A stretch of 38,189 nt of DNA. Source: Aquificota bacterium. GTDB taxonomy: Bacteria; Aquificota; Aquificia; Desulfurobacteriales; DQVG01. Positions 16,626-38,189 of the stretch are shown in pieces. Positions within the stretch are counted from its first letter, which is position 1. Every line of letters starts with the position of its first letter. Under the pieces are notes generated by a model that saw only the letters and a program-made list of their open reading frames with translations, had not been told where the DNA came from and did not search any database. A program made the position numbers and the translations under genes. The stretch covers positions 1 through 38,189 of the forward strand of contig JAMOTM010000033.1 in assembly GCA_027002265.1 (NCBI GenBank). Reading direction: 5' to 3'.

Positions 16626-18500
16626 ATGAGCTTAAGTTTACTTAATCTTCTTTTGAAAGAAATTCCAGATCTTAAGAATAATTTAGAAAAATCATCTAAT
16701 AAAAATTTAAAAAACAATACAAAAGATTTTCATAATATACTAATATCAATTTTAGATGAAAATTTAAAAAATTTCAATAATGATTTTAAAATTACAACAA
16801 ATTTTTCTCAAAATTTACTTCAAATAAATTTACAACTTGAGAGCAATTTAAATAAAAAAGTAAATTTGCTTGTATCTAATTTAAAAGCTCTTCTTTCCAA
16901 ACAAAAATTAAGTGTAAATGATTTAAATTTATTAGAAAGCTATATAAAATCCCTTTTAAATATATTAAAAAATAGTAGTTCTAATATTTCTTTTGAAGAT
17001 ATTTTTGAAATTTTAAGTGCTTTTAAAAACTTTATACTATCTAATATAGAAAAAAACGAAGATAAAAATACACCAAGTAATGATTTAAAAAATAATAATA
17101 TTAACTTTATCTTTAATTTTGAAAATGCAAAAAATTTTATAGAAAGCTTTCAAAAATATTTTGACAAAAAAAATAAATTAAATATAGACAAAATAGAAGA
17201 AAAAAGCAAAACCAAAAATCACAACTATGAAAAAAAAGAATCTAAGATTTCAATTTGGGATACAAAAAAAGATTTAATAAATTTTTTAAACAATTTTCTA
17301 TCCGCTATCCAAAGCATAAAAATGGAATTTCTTAAACAAAAAAATGAAATTGCAAAGAGAACTTTTAATCAAATCGATAAGTTTAATAAGTTTAAAAAAA
17401 ATAATACAGATATTACTTTTAAACATGCAAACAATAAAAGTTTAGATCTTCAGAAAAACAAAAGTAAGGAAAATTTATTATTAAATAATCAAAAATCACA
17501 AAATGTTCAATATAAGGAAAAACAAAATAATAATAATGTTATAAAAGAAAAGAACTTAGAGAAAACAAATATAGATAAAGATATATTTTTATTAAATTCC
17601 TTATCCAATAAAATAAAAAAGGAAAACAAAAAAAACGAAAAATTTTCTCAATTAAATAATTTAAATAATAAAAAAATAAATAACAATAGTATATTTTCCT
17701 TTTTTAAGAAAAATTCTTATCAAAATATACAAAAAACAAATCAAAAGGTAAGTTTCACAGAAATTCAGAATTTACCTTTACAGGAAAATAAACTCTCTTT
17801 GGAAAATACGAAAAATAAAAATACCAAACTAAAAAATAGATTACTTTCCTTAAAGAAAAAAAACAATTTATTTTCAATCTTTTCCAAGTATAAAAAGAAA
17901 GATAAAATAAATATTCTTCCCGAAAACTTAAATAATTTTTTAAATTCTGAAAAATCTTTGGAAAATTATATATCCAATTTCTCGCAAAGAAAAATTAATA
18001 TAAATTTAAGTTTGAAAAAAACATTAAATATCGAAAAAAGCTTAGATAATAAACAAGATTTACAAAATTTTGATTCTCAAAAGTTAAAAGAAAATATGAA
18101 TAATAAAACTAAATCTTTAAATTTCTATAATGTCTATAATTCTACAAATAAAAGCTATAATAATCAAAATATAAATTTTGAAAATAATCTAGTTGTTGGA
18201 AAAACTAATTTTGTTATTACCGAAACTAAATATCCAAATTTAAGAGTACTAAATGTTTATCAAAATCAAGAAAATTTAATGAAGGTTCGATATCATCTAG
18301 CAACCGGAGAACTTTCTTTAATACTAAAGGTAGAAAACATGCCTCCTGTTATGTTATCTATAATAAAAAAGGAAATAGAAAATGTTTTGGATGTATATAA
18401 TCTTACAAAAAGGAAAATTAAAATAAAAAATGAAAATAAAGAAAAAGAAAAAGAAAAATTTGAAAGAAAAGATGAGAAAGGATTATTTAAAGTTATTTAA
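16626..18500 (+). CDS. Large Asn/Lys-rich protein with a FliK-like C-terminus
   Basis: 624 residues. About 520 N-terminal residues are low-complexity and extremely rich in Asn, Lys, Leu and Ser, with no signal peptide or membrane segment. A short ordered stretch at the C-terminus (about 545-605) reads MKVRYHLATGELSLILKVEN, then helix MLSIIKKEIENVLDVYNL and a strand. That beta-beta-helix-beta plan resembles the conserved C-terminal domain of flagellar hook-length control protein FliK, which also has a long disordered N-terminus, but identity is too low to be sure. The tail is highly charged (Lys/Glu). GGAGAG precedes the ATG. It overlaps the TPR gene. No flagellar structural genes are in the window. 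Alternatively an unrelated secreted or scaffold protein. Confidence 0.6.
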   Translation: MSLSLLNLLLKEIPDLKNNLEKSSNKNLKNNTKDFHNILISILDENLKNFNNDFKITTNFSQNLLQINLQLESNLNKKVNLLVSNLKALLSKQKLSVNDLNLLESYIKSLLNILKNSSSNISFEDIFEILSAFKNFILSNIEKNEDKNTPSNDLKNNNINFIFNFENAKNFIESFQKYFDKKNKLNIDKIEEKSKTKNHNYEKKESKISIWDTKKDLINFLNNFLSAIQSIKMEFLKQKNEIAKRTFNQIDKFNKFKKNNTDITFKHANNKSLDLQKNKSKENLLLNNQKSQNVQYKEKQNNNNVIKEKNLEKTNIDKDIFLLNSLSNKIKKENKKNEKFSQLNNLNNKKINNNSIFSFFKKNSYQNIQKTNQKVSFTEIQNLPLQENKLSLENTKNKNTKLKNRLLSLKKKNNLFSIFSKYKKKDKINILPENLNNFLNSEKSLENYISNFSQRKININLSLKKTLNIEKSLDNKQDLQNFDSQKLKENMNNKTKSLNFYNVYNSTNKSYNNQNINFENNLVVGKTNFVITETKYPNLRVLNVYQNQENLMKVRYHLATGELSLILKVENMPPVMLSIIKKEIENVLDVYNLTKRKIKIKNENKEKEKEKFERKDEKGLFKVI

Positions 18501-20640
18501 AATTATCAAATATATGCTATTTATTTTCTTTTTTATATCTTTTAATAGTAGTTTGGGACAAGAAATCGTCCCAAGATATAAAAATAAATATAACTATACA
18601 GATAATATTTCTCCTAAAAATCTTCCTTATCCAAAATTAAATCCTGAAATTAAACAGAAACTTTTAGAAAAGAAATATAAAAAAGCTTTAAAGTATTTTC
18701 AAGAGCAAAACTATATTTCAGCTTTAAGTTTATTTTTTGATATTTTAAAACATCCTGAAAGCAAATACTTTGAAGATGCCCTTGCTTATCTAGCTGCGTG
18801 TTATTTAAAAATAGGGCAAAGAAATGATATAAAAAATTTGGTACAAAAAAGTATAAATATTTTAAAAAGTTATTATTCAATATGTTTAACTATTAACAAA
18901 AAAAAATTTCAGGAAAATGGATATATTTTAAAAAATATATGTAAGCCAAGCCCTATATACTATTATTTTCTTGGAGTTGCCTATGAAACTTTAGGATTTT
19001 ATAAACAAGCTCAAATTTATTATAAAAAAGCCTTGGAAAATATTTCCAAAAAATATATAAAATTTTTACCGTTAATAAAGTTAGGTCTACTTAGAATAGC
19101 TTTAATAAATAAAAATTTAGATAAAGCTAAAGAATATATTTATAGTTCACAATACTCTAGACTTTTAAATCCTGAAGAAAAAGGTGAATTGTATTTTTTA
19201 ATAGGTTATTATTATTTTCTTCAGGGAAAATTCGCATCTGCCCAAAAATATTTTAATTTAGGTATAAAAACTTTTAAACCATATCTTTCTTATAATCCAT
19301 TTATTTACTATACCGTAGCCGAAAATCTTTTTTATATGCAGGATTATGATAAAGCTTTGAAAATTTTTTTAAAGCTTAAAAATTATCTTAAAAATTTTGA
19401 AATTGTAGAAAAATCAAAACTTCGAATAAATGATATTTTATTTCAAACTGATAAAGCAACTAAAAAAGAGCTTACAAACAGTTATTTAACCTTAATTTCT
19501 GAAACTCAAGGAACTAAATTAAATTATATCGCAAAGGTCTCAGAAATTAAATTTTTAACTTTAATTGCAGATGACTTCAAATTAAAACTTTTTTACAAAA
19601 ATATATTAAAAAAATCAAAAATTAAAAATAAAGACAAGTTAGTTAAAGATCTAAAAGATCCTCTTGTATTTGCTGCTACCACTTGGGCCAAAAATAGAAA
19701 TAATTATATTGGAAATTATGCCCTCGGGCTTTTTGGATACGAAGTTTTAAGAGGAGATAAACTATACCTTTATGATTATCTTTCTAAAGAACTCAATTAT
19801 GCTCAAATAGATAAATTTTTACCTGAGCATAGACAATTTATTTCAAAACTTTGGCAAAGATATCTTCTTCAAGGGCTTCCATCTGTAAATGTGAAACTTT
19901 ATCTTTCAAACCCTACATTTTTTAATAATATTTTTTCCCCTTCAGTTTTATATAAAATTGCCTTAGATTTAACTCATGAAGGTTATAAACAAGAAGCAAT
20001 AAAGCTTTTTACTATAATCCCTAAAAAAACTATAAATGAAAACCTAGTTTTAAACAGTGTCGCAAATCTACTTATTTTGGGAAAACCTAAATTAGCCTAT
20101 AATATTTTAAAAAACTTCCCTTATAAGTCAGATGATTACCTAATTCTTCTTGGGGAGACCTACTATAAGCTATTAAATATAAAAAACTTAAAAATTCTTT
20201 TAAAAAATCTAAAAAAAATTCCAAGCAAAAGAATTTTAGCAGTTTACTACATTTTTAAAATTAATTTAGATAAGATAGAACATAACAAAATTAATAAAAA
20301 AGATCTTGAAAATCTTAAACTTTTCCTTGATTATTTAAAACCAAAAGATTACTTAGTTTTAGGAGATATTTTAACATCATTGGGAGATATAAGTTTAAGT
20401 AATCAAAACTATGCACTTGCAGAAAAAATATTTGAAAAATTATATAATTTAAATTACAATAGTTGCTATACAGGTATGAAGCTTGCATATACGTACTATA
20501 AGGAAAATAAATTAAAAGAAGCTAATGAGTTAATAAATTCTATTTCAAAAAGTTGCAAAAATCCTTACGTAAAATTAACTAAGTATTTAATAAACCTAAA
20601 AAATACTATGGCGGAAGTGCTAAACTATGAAAATAAATGA
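18472..20640 (+). CDS. Secreted TPR-repeat protein
   Basis: About 722 residues. A signal peptide is clear: MRKDYLKLFKIIKYMLFIFF, then ISFNSSLGQ with likely cleavage near LGQ. The start is placed at this ATG rather than an in-frame upstream ATG at 18430 that would add a Lys-rich stretch. TPR units are visible, such as KALKYFQEQNYISALSLFF, YYFLGVAYETLGFYKQAQIY, ELYFLIGYYYFLQGKFASAQ and a final MKLAYTYYKENKLKEANELI. The middle is helical without clear motifs. It overlaps the FliK-like gene by 29 nt and the EAL gene by 14 nt, so the three are probably co-translated. It probably acts as a periplasmic scaffold. Campylobacter PflA is a comparable signal-peptide TPR motility protein, but no homology is claimed. 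Confidence 0.8.
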   Translation: MRKDYLKLFKIIKYMLFIFFFISFNSSLGQEIVPRYKNKYNYTDNISPKNLPYPKLNPEIKQKLLEKKYKKALKYFQEQNYISALSLFFDILKHPESKYFEDALAYLAACYLKIGQRNDIKNLVQKSINILKSYYSICLTINKKKFQENGYILKNICKPSPIYYYFLGVAYETLGFYKQAQIYYKKALENISKKYIKFLPLIKLGLLRIALINKNLDKAKEYIYSSQYSRLLNPEEKGELYFLIGYYYFLQGKFASAQKYFNLGIKTFKPYLSYNPFIYYTVAENLFYMQDYDKALKIFLKLKNYLKNFEIVEKSKLRINDILFQTDKATKKELTNSYLTLISETQGTKLNYIAKVSEIKFLTLIADDFKLKLFYKNILKKSKIKNKDKLVKDLKDPLVFAATTWAKNRNNYIGNYALGLFGYEVLRGDKLYLYDYLSKELNYAQIDKFLPEHRQFISKLWQRYLLQGLPSVNVKLYLSNPTFFNNIFSPSVLYKIALDLTHEGYKQEAIKLFTIIPKKTINENLVLNSVANLLILGKPKLAYNILKNFPYKSDDYLILLGETYYKLLNIKNLKILLKNLKKIPSKRILAVYYIFKINLDKIEHNKINKKDLENLKLFLDYLKPKDYLVLGDILTSLGDISLSNQNYALAEKIFEKLYNLNYNSCYTGMKLAYTYYKENKLKEANELINSISKSCKNPYVKLTKYLINLKNTMAEVLNYENK

Positions 20641-34740: not shown

Positions 34741-35298
34741 TTATAGCCCCAAAGCTTTTTCAATTCTTTTTGTAACTTCCTCTATATCTCCAAGACCATC
34801 AACTTTTACTAAAATTCCTTTTTCTTCATAGTAAGTAATAACTGGAGCAGTTTTTTCGTAATATACTTTAAGTCTATTTTTAATTACTTCTTCTGTATCG
34901 TCCTCTCTACCTCTTGCAAGCATTCTTTTGATAAGTTCTTCATCCGGTACATCTAAAAAGAGAACCTTATCTAAGTTAATTCCAAGTTCTTTTAACATTT
35001 CTTCAAACGCTTTTGCTTGATTTAAAGTTCTCGGAAAGCCATCTAAAATAAATCCTTTTTCCTTTGCATTAACTTTTAAAAGAGCTTCTTTAATAATTCC
35101 AGTTACTATTTCATCTGGGACAAGCTCTCCTTTATCCATATACTCTTTTGCAATTTTTCCAAGTTCCGTTTGATTTTTAACAGCCTCTCTTAAAATATCT
35201 CCTAAAACAATAAGAGGAATGCCATATTTTTCCGCAATAATTTTAGCTTGAGTTCCTTTTCCTGCTCCTGGAGGTCCTAAAAATACTACTTTTATCAT
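34741..35298 (-). CDS. adk: Adenylate kinase (short-LID form)
   Basis: Interconverts ATP + AMP and 2 ADP. P-loop GPPGAGKGTQA, AMP-binding LGDILREAV, GFILDGFPRT. 185 residues with a minimal LID (ARGREDDTEEVI), lacking the zinc-binding insert of long forms. ATG start, with GGAGGA upstream. It is normally next to secY; here an Rpn gene lies between. Confidence 0.98.
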   Translation of the reverse strand: MIKVVFLGPPGAGKGTQAKIIAEKYGIPLIVLGDILREAVKNQTELGKIAKEYMDKGELVPDEIVTGIIKEALLKVNAKEKGFILDGFPRTLNQAKAFEEMLKELGINLDKVLFLDVPDEELIKRMLARGREDDTEEVIKNRLKVYYEKTAPVITYYEEKGILVKVDGLGDIEEVTKRIEKALGL

Positions 35299-35326: not shown

Positions 35327-36235
35327 TTAAATTAAACCTTCTTTTTTTAACCAAAGTTTTATAGTTCTTTTAGGGATATTTGTAGATTTACTTATTAAAT
35401 CTATATCTATACCTGTTTTATACATATTTATTACCAAAGTTTTTATTTTCTCCTTTACTTTTTTTTCGGCAAGTTTTTTAGCTTTTTCCTCGGCGAGTTT
35501 TTTGGCTTTTTCCTCGGCAAGTTTTTTGGCTTTTTCTTCGGCAAGTTTTTCAGCAAGCCGTTTAGCAGCCTCTTCAGCCCATCTTCTTATATAGGATATT
35601 TCTAAAGGGTCTATGGCAAGTGGCATTTTGATTCCTCCAAATTTTTCAAAATATTTTCTTGTTTCTTTTCTTAAATTAGATAAAAAAAGTAAAGCCTCAA
35701 TATATCTAATTCTTTTGGTTGGTGATAAGGATTTTAATTTATTTATTATTTTTTCCAAGATTTCTTTTTTGTTTTCTATTTTACATAAAATGGCAATTAT
35801 CCAATCTTCTATATTCTCACTTTTTAAAAGCTCTTTTCCATCTATATCTTTTAAAGCTACTATCTTGTAGTTATAATCTATACCTTCCGCTTTCAAAACA
35901 TTTTTCATTTTCTTTAAATCCCTTTCTCCAAGATAAATAACAACCTGAACAGGAATTTTTTTGAAAGTAGAATATATCAAAGATAAGTATATAAGCATTC
36001 TATCCAACATAAATTCATCTTGAGTTTGGAATTCTATATGATAAATGGCATTTTTGTACTCAAATAAAATGTCAGGTCTTTTTTCAATAAATTTTGGTAA
36101 GTTAATACTTAAGGATTTTTCTTTTAAAAATTTTTCATCTATATCAATGTTCAATATAAGCTTAATAAGTCTTCTTAGAAAAGGGAAAAGTTCCTTTGTA
36201 AGAATATCATATTTTTTCTCTTTTTTTGTTTTCAA
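35327..36235 (-). CDS. Rpn-family (YhgA-like) PD-(D/E)XK nuclease between secY and adk
   Basis: 302 residues, related to recombination-promoting nuclease/putative transposase proteins (PDDEXK_2/YhgA-like). Core nuclease motif: RPDIL with D55, then HIEFQTQ with E68 and Q70, and a following Arg/Tyr helix (DRMLIYLSLIY). A Lys/Glu/Ala-rich linker built of 8-residue repeats (EEKAKKLA) separates the nuclease from a C-terminal helix-turn-helix-like segment (DLISKSTNIPKRTIKLWL). TTG start with GGAG 8 nt upstream, 15 nt after the secY stop, so it is read within the operon. This position is foreign to the conserved secY-adk order and suggests insertion. No terminal inverted repeats were seen. Confidence 0.82.
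   Translation of the reverse strand: MKTKKEKKYDILTKELFPFLRRLIKLILNIDIDEKFLKEKSLSINLPKFIEKRPDILFEYKNAIYHIEFQTQDEFMLDRMLIYLSLIYSTFKKIPVQVVIYLGERDLKKMKNVLKAEGIDYNYKIVALKDIDGKELLKSENIEDWIIAILCKIENKKEILEKIINKLKSLSPTKRIRYIEALLFLSNLRKETRKYFEKFGGIKMPLAIDPLEISYIRRWAEEAAKRLAEKLAEEKAKKLAEEKAKKLAEEKAKKLAEKKVKEKIKTLVINMYKTGIDIDLISKSTNIPKRTIKLWLKKEGLI
35467..35550. repeat. 24-bp tandem repeat in the Rpn linker
   Basis: Three near-identical 24-bp units (CGGCAAGTTTTTTAGCTTTT type; 35467-35490, 35491-35514, 35515-35538) and a partial fourth. In frame they encode repeated EEKAKKLA, a helical linker. Likely to vary in copy number between strains. Confidence 0.9.
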
Positions 36236-36250
36236 GATTTTACTCCAAAC

Positions 36251-37585
36251 TTATATTCCCAGCTTTTTTAGTTTATGAATAAGTTTTGGCTTTTTCAAAA
36301 ATCCATCATAAGAAAATTCTAAAGCTGCCGCTTCAAGTCTTCTGAGTATATCAAGTCCTACCCCAACTACGATTAAAACTGCAGTTCCTCCTACATAGAA
36401 AGGAATTCCAAGTTTATAGGTAACAAGCAAGGGAACGATAGCTATAATAGTTAAAAATACAGCCCCTATAAAGGTAAGTTTATTAACAATTCTTGCCAAA
36501 TATTTTTCAGTTTCTTTTCCAGCTCTCACTCCGGGGATATACATTCCCATTTTGTTTAAATTTTCTGCAAGTTCTTTAGGGTTAAAAATAACTGCGGTGT
36601 AATAATATGTAAAAATAAAGATTAAGGCAGCATAAATTATATAATACCAAGGATTTTGTGGAGACAAAATTTCAGAAATTTTAACAGCCCAGGGTTTTTG
36701 AATAAATTTAGCAATAGTAGCAGGAAACATTAAAATGGAAGCTGCAAAAATAATAGGTATAACATTTGCAGGATTGAGTTTTAAAGGAAGATAGCTTCTA
36801 TTTGATGATACTATTAAGGTTTTGGAAACAAATCTTTTAGTTTGACGAATCGGAACTTTATACTCTGCAAGTTCAACTGTAATAACAGAAATTATCATGA
36901 AAGCTACAACTAAAGCTAGAATTATAAATTTATTAACTTCCATTTGACCAGTTTTAAGATAGGTGATTAAATTAATTATTGCTCCAGGCAAAGATGCTAA
37001 AATTCCAGCCATAATAATTAAAGATACTCCGTTTCCTATTCCTTTGGAAGTTATTTTTTCTCCAAGCCAAAGTAGAAACATAGTTCCTGCAGTTAAAGTA
37101 ACTACAGTCGTAATAATAAATCCAAATCCAGGTTCTGGAACTATAGGTATTCCGGAAGGTGCATGCATTTTCTCAAGTCCAATTGCAATTCCAGCAGATT
37201 GAATGATAGCTATAAGTAAAGTTAAATATCTTGTATATTGCATTATTTTTCTTCTACCATATTCTCCCTCTTCTTTAGCAAGTTTTTCTAAAGATGGAAA
37301 ACTGGCAGTTAGAAGTTGCATAATAATAGAAGCAGAAATAAAAGGCATAACTCCAAGTGCAAAAACCGTAAGTCTCGACAAAGCCCCTCCGGAAAACATA
37401 TTTACAAAACTTAAAATAGTTCCAGATGCGCTTTTAAAAAATTCTGCTAACGCAGTAGTATCTATTCCAGGAGTAGGAATATGTGCTCCAATTCTATATA
37501 TAAGTAAAATAAAAAAAGTAACTAAAATTTTCTTTCTTAATTCTTCTATACGAGGTATTTTTTTTATTATTTCTATAATATTCAA
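36251..37585 (-). CDS. secY: Protein translocase subunit SecY
   Basis: Channel of the Sec translocon. 444 residues with ten predicted membrane helices; typical stretches are YRIGAHIPTPGIDTTALAEF, the plug region GGALSRLTVFALGVMPFISASIIMQLL, and KLGIPFYVGGTAVLIVVGVGLD near the end. TTG start with GGGGGA just upstream. Normally preceded by rplO; here it starts its own transcript facing a Uma2-family gene. Confidence 0.98.
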   Translation of the reverse strand: MNIIEIIKKIPRIEELRKKILVTFFILLIYRIGAHIPTPGIDTTALAEFFKSASGTILSFVNMFSGGALSRLTVFALGVMPFISASIIMQLLTASFPSLEKLAKEEGEYGRRKIMQYTRYLTLLIAIIQSAGIAIGLEKMHAPSGIPIVPEPGFGFIITTVVTLTAGTMFLLWLGEKITSKGIGNGVSLIIMAGILASLPGAIINLITYLKTGQMEVNKFIILALVVAFMIISVITVELAEYKVPIRQTKRFVSKTLIVSSNRSYLPLKLNPANVIPIIFAASILMFPATIAKFIQKPWAVKISEILSPQNPWYYIIYAALIFIFTYYYTAVIFNPKELAENLNKMGMYIPGVRAGKETEKYLARIVNKLTFIGAVFLTIIAIVPLLVTYKLGIPFYVGGTAVLIVVGVGLDILRRLEAAALEFSYDGFLKKPKLIHKLKKLGI

Positions 37586-37729: not shown

Positions 37730-38189
37730 ATGAGCTTAGCTGAAAAATTTAAAGAATACTATACATATAAAGACTATAAAACTTGGAAAGGAGATTGGGA
37801 GCTTATAGAAGGTATTCCATTTGCTATGTCTCCTTCTCCGAGTGTTAAACATCAATTGATTCTTTCTAAACTTATTTACTTATTAAATAAGGAATTTAAA
37901 AAAAACAAATGTAAAAAATGTTTTGTATTACCTGAAACCGATTGGGTTATAAGTTTTGATACTGTAGTTAGGCCTGATATATCTATTGTTTGCCATTTAG
38001 AAAATTTTGAGGATTACATAAATAGAACTCCCGAAGTTATTTTTGAAATCGTATCTCCTTCTTCGTATAAAAGGGATGAAAGATTAAAATTTGAGCTTTA
38101 TAAAAAAGAAGGAGTTAAGTTCTATATCTTGGTTTATCCAGATTTAAAACTAATTAAAGCATACAAATTTGAAAATGGAAATGTTATAT
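37730..38189 (+). CDS. Uma2-family (DUF820) endonuclease-like protein, partial
   Basis: Open to the right edge: 153 codons from the ATG, no stop. Uma2-family pattern: WELIEGIPFAMSPSPSVKHQ, then VVRPDISIV with D83 in the PD motif, EVIFEIVSPSSYKRDERLK with E106 and the SPS motif, and LYKKEGVKFYILVYP. These match the PD-(D/E)XK fold of Uma2 proteins, whose biological role is poorly known; many occur in multicopy families. A pair of Cys (C61, C64) is an extra feature. Divergent from secY. AAGGGA precedes the ATG. Confidence 0.88.
   Translation, partial: MSLAEKFKEYYTYKDYKTWKGDWELIEGIPFAMSPSPSVKHQLILSKLIYLLNKEFKKNKCKKCFVLPETDWVISFDTVVRPDISIVCHLENFEDYINRTPEVIFEIVSPSSYKRDERLKFELYKKEGVKFYILVYPDLKLIKAYKFENGNVI

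Follow-up and report, generated by a model that had tools for sequence, protein, structure and literature searches.

A candidate single-gene RpnL/RpnS toxin-antitoxin module between secY and adk in an Aquificota genome

INTRODUCTION

Proteins of the Rpn (YhgA-like) family are best described from Escherichia coli. In RpnA, the substitutions D11A, D63A, E82A and Q84K were reported to cause loss of all phenotypes in vivo, and Q84A and R94A to cause loss of recombination while toxicity was kept (PMC5350276). The same paper gives the motif PDDEI as identical among the family members of E. coli K-12; we take this motif as a mark of the E. coli group and do not assume its validity for the whole Rpn family. 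According to a later study (PMC10327210), full-length RpnA is a nuclease that cuts DNA and is toxic, and its reading frame contains an internal start, M244, whose ribosome site was proven by mutation. The C-terminal part, made separately in RpnA-type genes, is described there as dimerising via its first helix and as blocking the nuclease by binding to the same part of it, with the number of repeats setting specificity, and phage protection was demonstrated for RpnP2 (PMC10327210).

Here we describe an Rpn-type gene that lies between secY and adk in an Aquificota bacterium. The window, as used below, is the whole stretch of DNA analysed, 38,189 nucleotides, which is all of contig C33 from a draft genome (G000) of 1.39 Mb in 81 contigs.

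RESULTS

In the ORF list of the window, an intact reading frame of 302 aa with a TTG start was found on the minus strand at 35327..36235 (hereafter rpn), and its neighbours on the same strand were identified by Pfam as secY on the upstream side (36251..37585, −; PF00344, E = 1.8e-106) and adk on the downstream side (34741..35298, −; PF00406, E = 2.2e-56). The secY ORF ends at 36251, which leaves a gap of 15 nt to the rpn ORF, and the rpn stop is 28 nt apart from the adk start at 35298; map, infA and ribosomal/rpoA genes, as named from their translations, follow adk. A Shine-Dalgarno sequence GGAG (36243..36246, −) is located 7 nt before the TTG. The ORF list thus agrees with the preliminary description, which had placed an Rpn-type nuclease gene between secY and adk, 15 nt past secY, on the same strand and with GGAG in place. 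No terminator-like site was found on this strand in the secY-to-adk stretch. Judging from the shared strand, the Shine-Dalgarno sequence of its own, the short gaps and the lack of a terminator-like site there, rpn is likely to be co-transcribed with secY and adk. Promoter-like sites numbered 21, compared to 16.5 ± 4.1 in shuffled sequences, which is uninformative on internal or extra promoters, and the G+C content of rpn (26.2%; secY 31.1%, adk 31.5%, window 27.9%) is not decisive.

At the other end of secY, a divergent Uma2-type PD-(D/E)XK gene was observed (37730-38189, +; PF05685, E = 1.5e-19; PADLOC PDC-S03, E = 6e-28), which is truncated where the contig stops. At this place, ~300 bp upstream of secY, the same-genus genome has rplO instead, so that here secY is flanked by nuclease genes on both sides. 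The window also contains two long ORFs at 16626-20640 (+) of 624 and 736 aa, overlapping by 71 nt; the former has no Pfam match and the latter has TPR repeats.

The identity of the rpn product was examined by sequence and profile searches as well as by structure prediction. The window protein itself gave only sub-threshold matches to CoiA_nuc and DUF6115 in Pfam with no Transposase_31 match, no match to an Rpn model in NCBIfam including TIGR01784, and nothing convincing in PHROGs and PADLOC; a sequence search of the PDB with the protein and with a 17-sequence profile gave no nuclease match. Homologues were present in 32 of 101 related genomes, its own included, at up to 11 places per genome, and in 32 of 136 genomes in a phylum-wide search at a stricter limit. 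The closest ones are 35-40% identical, and the best of them (40%) carries a stop. At E up to 0.1, TIGR01784 was matched by 16 and PF04754 by nine of the 17 aligned members. None of the 10 rescored relatives and paralogues (19.8-49.8 bits) scored as high as the curated TIGR01784 cut-off (52.1 bits), and the window protein remained below the curated cut-offs of both PF04754 and TIGR01784, so that it is filed as divergent Rpn-like and not as a member of a curated model.

The putative nuclease part (codons 1-203; 35627..36235, −) contains D10, D55, E68, Q70 and R79, which are invariant across the 17 aligned sequences and are the equivalents of the PD-(D/E)XK residues D11, D63, E82, Q84 and R94 of RpnA. 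When a profile of the 17 Aquificota sequences was aligned to E. coli RpnA/B/C by hhalign, a modest match was obtained (E = 1.2e-4, probability 55%, 178 columns), and the four closest sequences gave E = 6e-4 and a probability of 28%. The alignment begins at residue 66 of the window protein, pairing E68/Q70/R79 with RpnA E82/Q84/R94 and M204 with M244; D10 and D55 lie outside it and are equated with D11 and D63 by position only. The PDDEI motif is absent from the translation. An AlphaFold2 model of the full-length protein (mean pLDDT 83.6) consists of a nuclease core, a low-confidence or disordered segment at 200-214, a helix at 213-273 and two short helices. In VIA-align, the best fold match was to NucS/EndoMS-type nucleases (Z 7.8, 2.9 Å, 98 residues), where a Z below 8 can reflect a common arrangement only, and residues 255-301 matched DNA-binding helix-turn-helix domains; Foldseek returned no match to the window model at E 0.001 or better. 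Since the relatives, the catalytic residues, the RpnA/B/C profile match and the predicted fold agree with each other, we classify the window protein as a divergent Rpn (YhgA-like) PD-(D/E)XK nuclease of predicted activity.

Codon 204 of rpn is an ATG (35624-35626, −) with GGAGG (35634..35638, −) 7 nt ahead, right before a series of 24-bp repeats, and its Shine-Dalgarno sequence is the best placed among the 12 in-frame starts of the gene; the TTG at codon 267 has a longer match, AAGGAG, at a spacing of 12 nt. For the window gene alone, GGAGG is weak evidence, because GGA-GGN is a likely coding of Gly-Gly in AT-rich DNA, and the case for an internal start therefore rests on the family. We collected 63 intact homologue ORFs, excluding open-ended, broken and <230-aa ORFs, and selected from them 25 non-redundant homologues by a greedy 70% identity selection; ORFs from two further searches and four own-genome genes besides that of the window are outside these counts. 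In all 25, the codon 204 column has an in-frame start (24 ATG and 1 TTG, two of them one residue off) that is led by a 5-8 nt match to TAAGGAGGTGAT, while a match of at least 5 nt is seen at only 26 of the 340 remaining in-frame starts of these ORFs. By synonymous-codon resampling, an average of 14.2 of the 25 were expected to have a match of at least 4 nt, with a maximum of 21 over 2000 draws, compared to 25 observed. The Shine-Dalgarno sequence codes for Gly-Gly in the window gene, paired in the profile alignment with Lys-Glu of RpnA, and for Glu-Glu or Glu-Val in most relatives, indicating that it is the DNA that is conserved. The same scoring, when applied to the E. coli genes as a positive control, found M244 in both rpnA and rpnB as well as M241/M242 in rpnC. 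The start column was chosen after viewing the alignment, though the published RpnS position predicts the same column. An RpnS-type antitoxin is therefore the probable product of the last 99 codons (35327..35626, −).

The 24-bp tandem repeats (35454..35554, −; period 24, 4.2 copies, 88% matches, score 146) have the top score of the 14 repeat rows for the window and code for an 8-aa unit of two 4-aa steps, i.e. the multiples of 4-aa repeats of an RpnS first helix are present. They begin ~16 residues after Met204 and lie within a predicted continuous helix of 61 residues (213-273), and in a model of the 99-aa putative RpnS alone (mean pLDDT 76.3), the helix H7-70 spans them. The repeats had previously been read as a variable linker; in the models they instead extend the long RpnS helix, and disorder is predicted at 200-214, the site of the internal start. 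Toward the C-terminus, a pair of helices resembling a helix-turn-helix is predicted at residues 278-298 (35342..35404, −).

Of the explanations other than a two-product gene, the one that survives best is an ordinary defence or Rpn nuclease that is made as the full-length protein only, with E-E-x-x-M-P being kept for protein reasons. The M-P-[IL] stretch is indeed conserved as protein too, but the Shine-Dalgarno sequence exceeds the synonymous-codon expectation (0 of 2000 draws) and is kept across Gly-Gly, Glu-Glu and Glu-Val, the start site falls opposite the proven RpnA start in the profile alignment, and the region around it is predicted to be disordered, so we consider an ordinary nuclease unlikely, if the strongest of the alternatives.

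Rpn paralogues elsewhere, whose search had been suggested in the preliminary description, were found in the same genome as three further Rpn-type genes, and all three carry a Shine-Dalgarno-led internal start. One is a second, more divergent gene on contig C6 (L208 10478-11419, −), which precedes rpsJ, a gene of the S10 operon on the same strand, by 241 nt, with a promoter-like stretch in between that appears by eye to be conserved in the sister genome. Divergent from it is a HepT/MntA-like pair (L208 11561-12284, +), whose nucleotidyltransferase is above the Pfam cut-off and whose HepT-like partner is below it. A 149-aa ORF at C6:11-460 was considered as Uma2-like and dropped, as Pfam gave nothing at E 0.01. 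The two others, on C58 (L002 / L210) and C57 (L200), are cut at contig ends and have EGLRKGLE- or EKGLKQGF-type repeats; the C58 gene adjoins an ORF named by eye as Cas6-like.

We also compared the secY-adk interval in related genomes. Among the 101 relatives searched, 97 have a secY match (98 loci scored, G071 being read twice), and in 87 of these secY and adk are joined on one strand with a gap of −4 to 19 nt, including all 21 genomes read from the sister family within the order. Four have a gene in between (the window, G079, G071 and G062), and the remaining six, all of genus g25, either lack an adk match in the stretch read (five) or reach a contig end (one). G001 (64% complete) is the only other genome of the genus, with a SecY 89% identical to that of the window; its secY and adk adjoin each other directly (L033), and the search found no rpn homologue in it. 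This empty site supports the earlier proposal that rpn was inserted, and rpn is accordingly a guest gene in a conserved joint, being absent from this site in the other 96 genomes whose secY locus was read. The gene in the joint is a carbonic anhydrase on the opposite strand in G079 (PF00194), a 412-aa ORF with no Pfam match in G071, and in G062 a 560-aa ORF (L188 843-2525, −) that is TnpB-like by eye with a sub-threshold Pfam match only and represents an independent insertion. These cases indicate that the secY-adk joint tolerates occasional insertions; the window insertion is not unique as such, but is unique in the gene inserted among the related genomes read.

Target-site duplications, also proposed as a check, were not found beyond chance: a likeness of GGAG and AAAATC upstream of rpn and adk was rejected as such a duplication, since this pair ranks 49th of 630 when all pairs of upstream regions of the 36 window ORFs are compared. 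No terminal repeats were noticed at rpn, the comparison of upstream regions bearing on the duplication only. For E. coli-type rpn genes, PMC10327210 likewise describes no detectable target duplication, and it argues against mobility by the protein itself. Relatives of rpn were not seen in viral_contigs with two peptide patterns, and plasmid and phage collections gave no tblastn match to rpn at E 0.001.

A selfish or decaying insertion in the operon, without host function, would be in line with the occupied joints of G062, G079 and G071 and with the many stop-bearing Rpn genes seen among the relatives' matches. On the other hand, rpn is intact in its frame, its two Shine-Dalgarno sites and its catalytic residues, and neither terminal repeats nor a target-site duplication were found with it, which makes such an insertion improbable, somewhat more so than an ordinary nuclease.

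Still less probable is a domesticated operon member regulating growth or ribosome synthesis. Its tight same-strand fit among essential genes, without a terminator-like site, and its intact catalytic residues could be taken in this direction, but the gene was not found in G001, is missing at this site from the other 96 genomes, and has close relatives that are at most 40% identical. Elsewhere in the family, Rpn genes occupy other genomic places, and by a simple ORF heuristic only 3 of 29 loci examined, that of the window among them, are flanked on both sides within 60 nt by genes on their own strand, indicating that operon embedding is not typical of the Rpn family here. Of the earlier suggestion of domestication or addiction, domestication is thus not supported, and addiction comes near to our preferred explanation, though for a reason not noticed there, the internal start of a putative RpnS. 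An assembly chimera falsely joining secY, rpn and adk is conceivable in a draft genome of 81 contigs, but on either side of rpn the junction is short and the Shine-Dalgarno site correct, and the flanking sequence carries on without a break from the sister genome's secY end and adk start, leaving it hardly any weight.

DISCUSSION

We propose that rpn is a self-contained single-gene RpnL/RpnS toxin-antitoxin, probably anti-phage, riding on the secY-adk transcript, and put the probability of this reading at roughly three in four (0.74). It builds on the results that the ORF is intact, that the site is empty in the sister genome, that the internal start is conserved throughout the family and that the catalytic residues are present, and by analogy with the E. 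coli systems it attributes to the products nuclease activity, toxicity, inhibition by RpnS and phage defence. One frame would give two proteins, full-length RpnL from the TTG with GGAG and the C-terminal RpnS from ATG 204 with GGAGG. RpnL would be a PD-(D/E)XK DNA nuclease and presumably toxic, and RpnS, composed of the long repeat-bearing helix and the helix-turn-helix, may bind the same region in RpnL and restrain the nuclease. The gene would have entered the secY-adk joint after the split from the sister species and, with no terminator on that strand, would be carried on the secY-adk-map-infA transcript, so that expression of the secY operon would always yield both products. The TTG of RpnL has a match of 4 nt and the ATG of RpnS one of 5 nt, which suggests that the antitoxin would be favoured over the toxin in the ratio of the products.

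A further, speculative and rather doubtful extension is that capture by the operon couples the supply of RpnL and RpnS to ribosome synthesis, such that shut-off of host transcription or translation by a phage would stop the supply of the antitoxin first and free the nuclease. If true, rpn would act as a defence gene responsive to how an essential operon is running, and its loss from that operon would be difficult. Searches of one open-licence library turned up no earlier description of Rpn genes within ribosomal operons. The locus indicates that such a gene can settle within an essential operon without breaking it, and offers a natural case in which to study how the balance of toxin and antitoxin is determined and whether a place in an operon makes a defence gene more stable.

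Among nucleases compared by structure, NucS/EndoMS, Card1 and Can2 are like the window protein in the predicted fold of the nuclease core, but are only 7-15% identical over the aligned part and have other added domains. With the Rpn (YhgA-like) family (PF04754 / TIGR01784), as described by Kingston et al. (2017, PMC5350276), the window protein shares the PD-(D/E)XK core, E-x-Q followed by Arg and a variable C-terminal tail, whereas it lacks PDDEI and a direct match to PF04754 or TIGR01784. The closest likeness is to the E. coli RpnL/RpnS systems (RpnA-E and RpnP2; COG5464), as far as these are described by Zhong et al. (2023, PMC10327210): one frame with an internal start; a Shine-Dalgarno sequence four to three codons ahead of the internal Met; short-unit repeats soon after this Met (8-20 residues in that paper and ~16 here); a long first helix followed by short helices, here predicted; the nuclease residues; and a patchy, species-specific presence with no detectable target duplication. 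The window protein differs from them in being divergent and below the curated cut-offs, in the embedding of its gene between secY and adk, in a repeat unit of 8 aa as two 4-aa steps, and in the length of the antitoxin (putatively 99 aa, compared to ~49 aa for RpnA counted from M244). The gene-within-gene antitoxin, known in E. coli and C. difficile according to PMC10327210, would thereby be extended to a group of deep-branching thermophiles, where a Shine-Dalgarno sequence kept across different amino acids serves as a signature of the whole family at the DNA level. The mechanism is one already known, and what is new here is a divergent member of it in a new genomic place.
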